This document shows, piece by piece, positions 18,875 through 47,080 of a stretch of 55,260 nucleotides of DNA. The position numbers and the translations under genes are program-made. How positions within the stretch are numbered: the stretch's first letter is position 1; the number at the start of each line of letters is the position of its first letter. A model generated the notes under the pieces. The model did no database searches, was not told the DNA's origin, and saw only the letters and a program-made list of their open reading frames with translations. The stretch is from Candidatus Neomarinimicrobiota bacterium (GTDB lineage Bacteria > Fidelibacterota > SORT01): contig JACZTG010000014.1 in the NCBI GenBank assembly GCA_022573815.1, forward strand, positions 1 to 55,260, given 5' to 3'.

Positions 18875-20071
18875 TCAATTCGAATCGCCGAGCGAAATGG
18901 TGAGCGTATTAATCGTCCGATCAACGACCTTAATTTCGTAATCCCCGAAACTCTTCCCGTTAAGTTCCGCAGCCATCTTTTCAGGAGTGGAACGCGCGAT
19001 CAATTCAAACTCCGCTGAAATACCGTTATAGTTCCGGCTCCTTACAGCAAACAGCCCGTGGACAGCGCTATCCAGCCATTTTTTGAAGTTGGTAAAGCTG
19101 TTGAAATCGTGCAGATTCTGCACTTTTAGAAGAATCTGCCTACCGGCGTTTACCTCGGTTTTCCACCGATATTGAATAACTGCGGACAATTCTTCCGAGA
19201 CTTTCGAAGAAACCTTGGCGATAGCTCGGGCAGCCCCTAATGCAGGGTTACGATGCGGGTAAATCGCGTGTCCGGAGACCTCAGCAATTACAACGCCGTT
19301 ATTTACTTTCACCGCTTGAAGCCGGACGGTAGCCTGAATTGAGATTATCGCTCCGGAACTTCGGTCTGTGTCCTCAACGATTGACAATTCAGATTCTCCG
19401 ATTATCACCACGTCAGCGCCCAGCTCATCGGCAAGATTGATAGCTACCGAATCTTCGATTCTCGCCAATTTCAGATCAGCAGCAAATGAAACAATTTTTT
19501 CCGAATCCATATTAACAAACTCAAATCCCTTCTTTTTGAATTTGGCAAGAAGGGTTTGTTCCACCGATCCCAAGCCGCCGTAGCTGTCGAAATCAGAAGA
19601 CGATTCTCTAACTAAAAGCATAAGACTCGGCATTCCGAGACGATTGTGCAGCAATCCCAAAACGTCCAGGTCTTTTTCAATTTCTTTCCAATCCACCAAA
19701 GCGCGGAGAGTGACGACATAAAGGCTGTCAATATTTATCCCGGATGAGATAATTTCGAAAAGGCGAATATATCTAAATCTGTTTGAATATATATTCTCTT
19801 CCACGAGCCGCATATTTTCGGCATTTGCTTCAAAGTTAACCATTGGTTCCATTGCCTGCGCAATTGCGCCGCGCAGAGCGTCTGCGATAGCCTCCTTTTT
19901 CGCTCCGAAGACTCCCTTATCAATAACACTGCCGTAACCCGTATTTACAATTTTCATCGGTTTGGAGGCATATAGATTCCGACTGAATCCTATTCCGAGA
20001 TAAACGGATAGGATAAATAAAAGAACTGACTGTTTAAATAATCTTATATAGAAAATATAGTTGAATTGAAT
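18875..20071 (-). CDS. Exported FlgT-like protein with non-canonical start
   Basis: The conserved part (from the ATG at 19957, 360 residues) starts with an alpha/beta segment (AKKEAIADALRGAIAQAMEP...NIYSNRFRYI) like the FlgT N-terminal/LPP20-type domains of envelope proteins, followed by further repeats of similar style. No function is known to me. The ATG at 19957 lies in mid-domain and has no signal peptide. The frame is open for 38 more codons upstream and encodes RLFKQSVLLFILSVYLGIG...LYA, a typical signal peptide. No ATG, GTG or TTG exists there in any usable frame. An ATT at 20071 lies nine bases after GAGGAG and is the best start, giving 398 residues. The gene is probably real. The start and the family name are inferences. 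Confidence 0.65.
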   Translation of the reverse strand: MQFNYIFYIRLFKQSVLLFILSVYLGIGFSRNLYASKPMKIVNTGYGSVIDKGVFGAKKEAIADALRGAIAQAMEPMVNFEANAENMRLVEENIYSNRFRYIRLFEIISSGINIDSLYVVTLRALVDWKEIEKDLDVLGLLHNRLGMPSLMLLVRESSSDFDSYGGLGSVEQTLLAKFKKKGFEFVNMDSEKIVSFAADLKLARIEDSVAINLADELGADVVIIGESELSIVEDTDRSSGAIISIQATVRLQAVKVNNGVVIAEVSGHAIYPHRNPALGAARAIAKVSSKVSEELSAVIQYRWKTEVNAGRQILLKVQNLHDFNSFTNFKKWLDSAVHGLFAVRSRNYNGISAEFELIARSTPEKMAAELNGKSFGDYEIKVVDRTINTLTISLGDSN

Positions 20072-20186
20072 GCTGTGAAACTCCTCTGACAGTTAGCTAA
20101 ATCTGATAATTAAATATAGATTGAGCCGATTGAGTTGTCAAGAGCAATGAGAGTCATTGAGGTTGTGATAATTCGCGACTCCCACA

Positions 20187-20240: not shown

Positions 20241-20317
20241 AAGTAATATCAGAAAGGCTTTAGATAAATTGGATTTCACGAAAAATCATACTATCAAAAA
20301 AAGTCGGCAACAGAAAC

Positions 20318-20394
20318 AAAAACCCCCGGGGTGGCGCTACTTCCATGCAGCCGGGTAAACATGGAACCAATTCGCTCACTCACCGGGGTTTTTT
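20318..20394. terminator. Long bidirectional hairpin terminator
   Basis: AAAAACCCC at the left pairs with GGGGTTTTT at the right. Further in, GGTG pairs with CACC, GCG with CGC, and TTCCATG with CATGGAA, leaving the loop CAGCCGGGTAAA. T-runs follow on both strands (TTTTTTATTT on plus, TTTTTGTTT on minus). It lies downstream of the 20506-20913 gene and may also block transcription the other way. At 77 bases with internal loops it is unusually long for a terminator, so a small structured RNA is an alternative. Confidence 0.6.
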
Positions 20395-20505
20395 ATTTGA
20401 TTTATAAATAAGGTATTTTGGAGGATTAAAAAGTAATTCTAATTACAAAAAATCCGATGATTTTACTCACCGGATTTAAAGGCTTATTTAAAGCTTTTAT
20501 ATATT

Positions 20506-42487: not shown

Positions 42488-43348
42488 TCATTGCCATTTA
42501 TATTTCTTCCTGAATTTACTGCGGTAGTACACGGCTATAAAATTGAACCCTAAAACTATTATGAGTAATACCAACGCCGTGCCGTACTGCTTGTCTCTCA
42601 AAATCGGCGCTTCCGGGTGCTGAGTGGCTAATATATAAAGGTGATATGGCAAAACCATTACCTGATCAAAAATCGAGTTTGGCAACCGCGGCAGGAAAAA
42701 CGCCGCTACTGTTAGCAGGATGGGCGCTGTTTCACCCGCCGCTCTTCCGATGGCGAGGATCGAGCCCGTCAGCATTCCCGACAACGAATACGGCAGTACG
42801 TGGTTCTTAATCGTCTCCCACTTGGTCGCTCCTAACGCGAGGCTCGCCTCCCTAAACGACCTCGGCACGGCTTGCAAAGACTCGTTGCTGGCTACGATAA
42901 TTGTCGGCAGTGTCATACAAGCCAGCGTGAGACTACCCGCTAAAATCGAAGCTCCAAAATTAAAAAACAGCACGAAAAGACCCAATCCGAACAGTCCGAA
43001 TACGATAGACGGAACGCCTGCGAGCGTCACAATTCCTCTTTGGACATAAGTAGTGAATTTTCCTTTTTTCGCGTATTCAGAAAGATAAATCGCGCTTGCG
43101 ATTCCAAGCGGGAGCGCGAACAGCATCGTGCCCACAAGAAGCGAGAGGGTGCCGACTATTGCAGGAAGAATCCCCCCTTCCGCTCCGCTTTTTCTCGGCG
43201 CGGCTGAGATGAACTCCCAGCTGAGTCCGGGAATCCCTTTCCAAATCAGATCCAACAAAATCCACGCGACTATTCCTACAATAGTATACGTAACAAGCCG
43301 CATCGCCGCGAAGCCTAACTTTTCAGTTGTTGTAGAACTGATTATCAT
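42488..43348 (-). CDS. pstA: Phosphate ABC transporter permease PstA
   Basis: A 286-residue permease with about six membrane segments. The ABC coupling loop has EASLALGATKWETIKNHVLP, and GRAAGETAPILLT is typical. Its start overlaps the pstC stop by four bases. Confidence 0.95.
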   Translation of the reverse strand: MIISSTTTEKLGFAAMRLVTYTIVGIVAWILLDLIWKGIPGLSWEFISAAPRKSGAEGGILPAIVGTLSLLVGTMLFALPLGIASAIYLSEYAKKGKFTTYVQRGIVTLAGVPSIVFGLFGLGLFVLFFNFGASILAGSLTLACMTLPTIIVASNESLQAVPRSFREASLALGATKWETIKNHVLPYSLSGMLTGSILAIGRAAGETAPILLTVAAFFLPRLPNSIFDQVMVLPYHLYILATQHPEAPILRDKQYGTALVLLIIVLGFNFIAVYYRSKFRKKYKWQ

Positions 43349-44214
43349 CTTTCAAACTTATTCAAAAACCGTTGACCGATCATTACAAGACCAAACGTCA
43401 TAAGAAGCAGCACTATACCTACCATAAACAGCGCTCCGTAGTGTTCACTGCCGAACGGCACTTCGCCCATTTCCGCGGCTATGGTAGCTGTCATCGTCCG
43501 CACCGACTCAAACGGCGAAATCGTTATATTCGCGGCATTTCCGGTTACCATCATCACCGCCATGGTCTCGCCGATAACGCGTCCCATTCCCAGAAGAATA
43601 GCAGCGATGATCCCCGGCAGAGCGGCGGGTATGACTATCTTCCACAGCGTAACAAATCGGCTGCCGCCGAGAGCCAGCGAAGCCTCTTTGTACGATTTAG
43701 GTACAGCCTGAATCGCGTCTTCCGAAATCGTCAGGATTGTAGGAATAGCCATTATAGCCAGCAGAATCGAGCCTGTCAGCGCCGTTAATCCCGTTTGCAG
43801 CCCGAAAACTTCTTTAACCAGCGGAACAAGTACCACAAGCCCGAAAAAACCGATGACCACCGATGGTATTCCGGCGAGTGTTTCGATAAACGGTTTCAAT
43901 ATTTCCCGCTCTTTTTCTCGAGCCGCTTCGGCTAAATACGCCGCGCCGATAACGCCCATGGGAACTGCGATAAGCATCGCTAAAAAAGTGATCAAGAGCG
44001 TTCCCGTTATGAGAGGAAGAATTCCGAACAACTCTTTTTGGAACGATACAGGCTTCCAAATCGAACCGAAAAGCTCGCCTAATCCCGGATGTGACGCAAA
44101 CGGCAGCGCTTCTTTCCCGATAAAAATAAAAATCAGAAGCACGATAAGCATACTTGTGGAAGCTGCTCCCTGAAAAAGATATTTTATCAGATTTCCTTTT
44201 AAGATAGGTCTAAT
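43345..44214 (-). CDS. pstC: Phosphate ABC transporter permease PstC, non-canonical start
   Basis: The permease has the expected GASLALGG-like coupling loop (KEASLALGGSRFVTLWKIVIP) and GRVIGETMAVMMVTG. From the first ATG (44151) it has 268 residues but would begin inside TM1. The frame is open upstream for 29 codons back to a TAA at 44241-44239 and encodes RPILKGNLIKYLFQGAASTS, a positively charged lead-in to TM1, as PstC needs. It has no ATG, GTG or TTG in any usable frame. An ATT at 44214, five bases after AGGG, is the best candidate (289 residues). A CTG at 44190 after AAAAGGAAAT is the alternative. The gene follows pstS directly. Confidence 0.85.
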   Translation of the reverse strand: MRPILKGNLIKYLFQGAASTSMLIVLLIFIFIGKEALPFASHPGLGELFGSIWKPVSFQKELFGILPLITGTLLITFLAMLIAVPMGVIGAAYLAEAAREKEREILKPFIETLAGIPSVVIGFFGLVVLVPLVKEVFGLQTGLTALTGSILLAIMAIPTILTISEDAIQAVPKSYKEASLALGGSRFVTLWKIVIPAALPGIIAAILLGMGRVIGETMAVMMVTGNAANITISPFESVRTMTATIAAEMGEVPFGSEHYGALFMVGIVLLLMTFGLVMIGQRFLNKFER

Positions 44215-44259
44215 TTTATCCCTGTTATCTATAGAATCTTATTGAATTTCTTTCATCAG

Positions 44260-46588: not shown

Positions 46589-46606
46589 ACCCAAATTGAG
46601 GTACAT

Positions 46607-47080
46607 ACGCTAACTAAAACTTTATTAATTTTAATCGCCCTGTCCGCTTTTCAAATATCGGATGTCGGCAGTCTCAGCGCGCAGGGAAAAATGAATGCCG
46701 CGCAAAAAGAACTCCTGGATGCCGATTGGGAGTTTTCGCGAACATCCGTAAAGAAAGGAGCGGCGGCGGCTTTCTATCTGTATCTCACTAATAACGCTAT
46801 GCAGCTTCCCGAAGGGAGTTTGCCTATTTATGGGAAAAAAGCGATCTTCGATACGATGATGCAGGGTGATTATACTCTCTCATGGACTCCGATAAAAGCG
46901 GAAGTCGCCAAATCAGGGGAGCTGGGCTGGACGTGGGGAAAATACATCGTTGTAGTCATTCAGGAAGACGGAAGCGAATCAACCGGCTACGGGAAGTATC
47001 TCAATATCTGGAAGAAAGATGCAAACGGTAATTGGAAAGTATCGGTAGATATGGGCAATAAAAGCCCCTCACCGAATTAG
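46607..47080 (+). CDS. Exported SnoaL/DUF4440-like protein, non-canonical start
   Basis: From the ATG at 46691 a 129-residue protein of the SnoaL-like/DUF4440 group (KELLDADWEFSRTSVKKG... and KYLNIWKKDANGNWKVSVD). Upstream in the same frame LTKTLLILIALSAFQISDVG...SAQ is a clear signal peptide. It has no ATG/GTG/TTG start. An ACG at 46607 lies five bases after GAGG, where ATG would be expected, giving 157 residues. The function of such domains varies (ligand binding, isomerase). It is probably co-transcribed with the MFS gene, whose stop is 18 bases upstream. Confidence 0.65.
   Translation, partial: TLTKTLLILIALSAFQISDVGSLSAQGKMNAAQKELLDADWEFSRTSVKKGAAAAFYLYLTNNAMQLPEGSLPIYGKKAIFDTMMQGDYTLSWTPIKAEVAKSGELGWTWGKYIVVVIQEDGSESTGYGKYLNIWKKDANGNWKVSVDMGNKSPSPN

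Follow-up and report, generated by a model that had tools for sequence, protein, structure and literature searches.

A near-cognate start codon, probably AUU, in a Neomarinimicrobiota gene for an exported FlgT/CsgG-like protein

Known near-cognate starts and the locus studied here

The standard examples of genes that start at AUU are infC and pcnB of Escherichia coli, for which low output and dependence on IF3 are expected. The gene described here resembles them in that an AUU stands behind a Shine-Dalgarno sequence, although the genes themselves differ, and infC of the present genome has a start of the same kind as E. coli infC. In Staphylococcus aureus, ribosome profiling identified four non-canonical start sites, in cvfC1 (AUU), ccpN (AUA), citZ and infC (AUA), which are helped by strong Shine-Dalgarno motifs; reporters yielded about 10-30% of the AUG level, with output lowered in the three that were tested (PMC13009471). 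Near-cognate codons are found behind Shine-Dalgarno sequences in both organisms, but the four S. aureus sites come from ribosome profiling, whereas those reported here, in about 2% of conserved genes, come from sequence comparison alone. The literature searched contained nothing on the start codons of this phylum. AUU starts as such are already known, and a lone AUU gene adds to them; the new part would be the rate across a lineage.

The gene in question was found on the minus strand of a 55,260-nucleotide stretch of DNA from an uncultured marine Candidatus Neomarinimicrobiota bacterium, which as a whole is referred to as the window. Its open reading frame, orthologues and fold match together define a gene at 18875-20071 that would encode 398 amino acids if read from an AUU at 20071. 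On balance we consider it probable, if far from secure, that the gene starts at this AUU, that its product is an exported FlgT/CsgG-like protein and that it belongs to a group of genes that start at near-cognate codons. A near-cognate start of some kind is well supported by the comparisons below. The exact codon is less sure, with AUU 20071 having the Shine-Dalgarno sequence and AUA 20047 aligning with the ATG of relatives.

Start region of the exported protein gene

The reading frame follows a TAA at 20095-20093, runs to a stop at 18875 and does not reach an ATG until 19957. Ahead of that ATG, positions 20092-19958 are open and amount to 45 codons, not the 43 given in the initial annotation, whose count of 38 codons from ATT 20071 to the one before ATG 19957 is correct (translation IQFNYIFYIRLFKQSVLLFILSVYLGIGFSRNLYASKP). 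As the same annotation stated, this stretch lacks a usual start: there is no in-frame ATG, GTG or TTG between the TAA and ATG 19957, and the one ATG in another frame, near 19972, meets a stop after 5 codons. The GAGGAG that it described with an ATT nine bases downstream is likewise present at 20086-20081, a Shine-Dalgarno sequence in keeping with the usual anti-Shine-Dalgarno of this genome, and a 9-nt spacer separates it from the ATT at 20069-20071, the most likely start codon given that no usual start precedes 19957. Further upstream, a consensus scan located a sigma-70-like promoter (TTGACA-17-TATATT, 20113-20141, minus strand, 11/12) from which the RNA would begin about 35 nt ahead of ATT 20071. 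RNA folding around the start is not unusual (z 0.49). Taken alone, the Shine-Dalgarno sequence and near-cognate codon are only mildly unusual, as a Shine-Dalgarno of 5 nt or more ahead of an in-frame near-cognate codon occurs in 13% of codon shuffles and in about 19% of random coding segments. Because such a Shine-Dalgarno can arise by chance, the case for a near-cognate start rests on the missing usual start, homology and the promoter. Similarly, GAGGAG-N9-ATT is not enriched genome-wide over a reversed control (21 versus 28), and the motif by itself therefore proves nothing.

The 5′ extension looks coding in the gene's own frame only. Its codon score is -0.04 in frame, versus -0.42 and -0.34 in the other two frames and -0.39 in frame upstream of the extension; this value exceeds the 95th percentile of off-frame segments (-0.16) and falls under the 5th percentile of in-frame gene segments (0.03). 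The extension encodes a signal peptide (IQFNYIFYIRLFKQSVLLFILSVYLGIGFSRNLYA, 19967-20071, minus strand), as had been proposed for the codons upstream of 19957. Examination by eye and by Kyte-Doolittle hydropathy revealed a hydrophobic core (best 13-residue mean 2.5, VLLFILSVYLGIG) and a YA-S site, so that cleavage is predicted before SKP, and the orthologues all have such a peptide.

Homologues of the gene were identified in 7 other genomes of the phylum among 41 searched, comprising three orthologues from the same family (G001, G002 and G003, 30-39% identity to the focal protein) and four from other families (22-24% identity). In all seven an ATG opens a signal peptide, and no start falls at the position of 19957; a near-cognate start is therefore well supported. 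A conserved signal-less start at 19957 was the outcome that had been set beforehand as able to refute the proposal, and it was found in 0/7. Residue by residue, the signal peptides of the orthologues align only weakly.

DNA alignment of the 5′ ends, by contrast with the Shine-Dalgarno sequence, points to a different codon: ATA 20047 (20045-20047, minus strand), and not ATT 20071, lies opposite the ATG of G002 and G003. The gene might accordingly start at AUA 20047, an ancestral ATG having changed in place, with (M)RLFKQSVLLFILSVYLGIGFSRNLYA as its signal peptide, a reading that we regard as unlikely. It would yield a shorter and more usual n-region, closer to those of the orthologues in length and charge, whereas reading from AUU places the hydrophobic FNYIFYI ahead of the signal peptide charges; the signal core given in the initial annotation (RLFKQSV...) also begins directly after AUA 20047. 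However, this codon has no Shine-Dalgarno at a usable distance (none within 30 nt), the GAGGAG would be left without a job, and the near-cognate starts published for S. aureus are accompanied by strong extended Shine-Dalgarno motifs (PMC13009471). In G002 and G003, as judged by eye, a TTGACA-17-TATTTT promoter lies 7 nt ahead of the ATG and no Shine-Dalgarno stands nearby, and the mRNA may be leaderless at that ATG; the mode of initiation thus appears not to be conserved. The counterpart of their promoter in the window is weaker (TTCACA-16-TATTTT), and the upstream promoter and Shine-Dalgarno are present instead. Nor is a near-cognate codon kept at this start in the family relatives, which have ATG. 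We read this as a start that moved from an ancestral ATG to an upstream AUU, with an in-place change of ATG to ATA as the main rival. Of the earlier claim that initiation occurs at AUU, the start other than AUG, GUG or UUG stands, given the lack of a usual start and the orthologues, and the preference for AUU over AUA is less secure, given the AUA opposite the ATG of G002 and G003.

A start at ATG 19957 without any signal peptide would use the first usual start codon in frame, but we judge it very unlikely, as that ATG sits past the likely cleavage site, has no Shine-Dalgarno before it in the sequence and matches no orthologue start, and as the codons upstream of it resemble coding sequence and specify a signal peptide and the body has an exported fold.

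With AUU 20071 as the preferred start, the gene would be transcribed from the TTGACA-17-TATATT promoter, a 30S subunit would bind the GAGGAG of the mRNA, and initiator tRNA would start at the near-cognate AUU, rather than at AUA, and read it as fMet. Export would then remove a signal peptide some 35 residues long. The weak AUU codon would be expected to lower output and might make that output IF3-dependent.

Pfam returned only a weak DUF3280 match for the focal protein, below cut-off, and weak FlgT_N, FlgO and CsgG matches for the orthologues; no FlgT domain passed the cut-off in the same-family proteins, for which FlgT_N or DUF3280 was sub-threshold only. A structure model built from an eight-sequence alignment (mean pLDDT 76.5, pTM 0.47) had FlgT as its best PDB match (3w1e, E 6e-12), followed by PelC, CsgG and related exported proteins. 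The fold match is in line with the FlgT-like body that had been predicted and supports assignment as an exported FlgT/CsgG-like protein, with a domain order and exported location that appear to be shared with FlgT (3w1e) and CsgG/FlgO-like periplasmic proteins. Identity to 3w1e is 11% and whole-chain TM is 0.30-0.33; since these TM scores are low, we do not place the protein within FlgT proper, and we assign it no flagellar role.

The region upstream of the gene also contains conserved hairpins. A single-copy element of 78 nt (window 20317-20394, minus strand), with CCGGGG and a T run at its end, precedes the orthologous gene in each of the four family genomes that have it (G000-G003), and its 33-nt core differs by at most 2 bases, though the proteins are only 30-39% identical. 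It has no Rfam match, and a covariance model found 0 copies in the other 76 phylum genomes searched; the element could represent a small RNA or a conserved terminator. At 20437-20477 (minus strand) lies a hairpin that resembles a terminator, with TTTTTTGTAATTAGAATTACTTTT after it, and its palindromic GTAATT...ATTAC is largely conserved in three relatives.

Probable near-cognate starts elsewhere in the window and genome

Two further AUU cases had been proposed in the window, at 44214 and 46607, and both prove to be real near-cognate cases, the first with AUU and the second with ACG instead. The pstC gene (43345-44214, minus strand; TIGR02138 over cut-off) most likely starts at AUU 44214 after AGGGA (44223-44219); no usual start is present before 44151, and the ATT falls within about one codon of the ATG or GTG starts of orthologues. 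Just upstream of this AUU, between pstS and pstC, an in-frame ATGAAAGAAATTCAATAA opens a five-codon frame, MKEIQ-stop (44239-44256, minus strand), and translational coupling of this frame with pstC is possible. The DUF4440 exported protein gene (46607-47080, plus strand) most likely starts at ACG 46607 after GAGGT (46598-46602). Its G003 counterpart has an ATG at the same distance from the stop of the upstream gene, and ATG-started signal peptides are found in 5/5 of the orthologues read.

To extend these comparisons beyond the window, 1.17 Mb of this genome (49%) was surveyed against 1.20 Mb of G002, about half of each. Among 622 genes with a homologue, the reference start was mappable in 427. 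Of these, 310 carry ATG, GTG or TTG at precisely that position, and in 11 no usual start occurs there or within the next 12 codons. Hand curation, which removed shadow ORFs and upstream alignments running past a shared ATG, left 8 near-cognate cases in this genome, including the pstC and DUF4440 genes and excluding the focal gene and infC. The remainder are genes for asparaginase II (C2:59632, AUA), a lipoprotein-like M28 peptidase (C2:34667, AUA exactly opposite the ATG of G002), an aminotransferase (C9:54773, AUU exactly opposite an ATG, no clear Shine-Dalgarno), DivIC (C7:101605, AUU after AAAGGA) and an RNA methyltransferase (C6:36936, CUG opposite UUG), along with the weakest case, C2:35658, probably AUU and without a Shine-Dalgarno. 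Near-cognate starts recur in G002, where the clear ones are gatB (AUC after AGGAG), a UbiA protein (CUG), a PepP-like peptidase (CUG or AUU) and C1:136548 (AUA or AUU after AAGGAG); the AAGGAG-N6-AUA-AUU of this last gene is kept in the present genome, an arrangement common to two genera. The RF2 gene of G002 was rejected as a case, as it carries the known programmed frameshift signal (GGGGGTATCTTTGA). The focal gene would thereby belong to a set with AUU, AUA, AUC, CUG and ACG starts in its Neomarinimicrobiota family.

Because near-cognate codons are common, their presence near aligned starts is not significant by itself, and the argument of the survey is instead the lack of a usual start where homology requires one. 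For example, forcing a usual start on C2:59632 removes about 55 residues of the Asparaginase_II domain, forcing one on G002 gatB removes about 40 residues of the GatB domain, and a TRAM domain is likewise cut in a survey gene. Starts chosen in 410 genes by a simple scoring rule, on which the shares depend, were 69% ATG, 20% TTG and 8% GTG.

A sequence error that hides a normal ATG, or decay of the focal gene, would require only single-base changes in an assembly of 65 contigs, but we consider it highly improbable: about 8 of 427 genes lack a usual start, yet the roughly 130,000 codons of the survey set contain one or two internal in-frame stops, so that error is not the general cause. Error or decay frequent enough to remove 2% of starts would leave a substantial fraction of genes broken. 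The body of the focal gene is intact and coding, and the chance of an error at that gene itself is small but not zero. As to the internal stops, an in-frame TGA at G000:C2:9823-9825 (plus strand) splits a gene whose G002 homologue is one ORF, and the second possible stop is the TAA at C3:20561.

Initiation machinery and implications

The initiation machinery of this genome looks normal. Both IF3 domains are present and the protein can be aligned along its length to IF3s of solved structure, the initiator tRNA keeps the three G-C pairs and a C1-U72 mismatch, and 16S rRNA has the usual GGATCACCTCCTTT at its 3′ end. Altered IF3, altered initiator tRNA and altered anti-Shine-Dalgarno were each rejected on these grounds as the cause of near-cognate starts. 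Widespread leaderless starts were also set aside, as promoter-like sites 5-9 nt ahead of starts lacking a Shine-Dalgarno are in slight excess only. The infC gene (L157 1222-1776, minus strand) starts at AUA or AUU after GGAGG, and its start is near-cognate (AUU, AUA or AUC) in most relatives read; a weak infC start is what one would expect were IF3 to restrict its own production. With IF3 intact and infC apparently starting at AUA or AUU, control of the focal gene's rate through IF3 is plausible only.

The family may select starts loosely, with near-cognate codons in ~1-2% of conserved genes and ~20% UUG despite intact IF3, initiator tRNA and anti-Shine-Dalgarno, a reading that we hold tentatively and to which we give close to an even chance. 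A near-cognate rate near 2%, here from a single genome pair, would be unusual. If it is real, this lineage is less strict in choosing its starts than E. coli or S. aureus, each with no more than a few known near-cognate starts. Any gene caller restricted to ATG, GTG and TTG would then systematically lose N-termini in this lineage, including signal peptides, so that exported proteins such as the products of the focal gene, the DUF4440 gene and the lipoprotein-like M28 peptidase gene would be miscalled as cytoplasmic, and enzyme domains would be trimmed, as for asparaginase II and for GatB in a relative. Finally, if the reading is true, the family would provide a natural gene set for how near-cognate starts work with a normal IF3.
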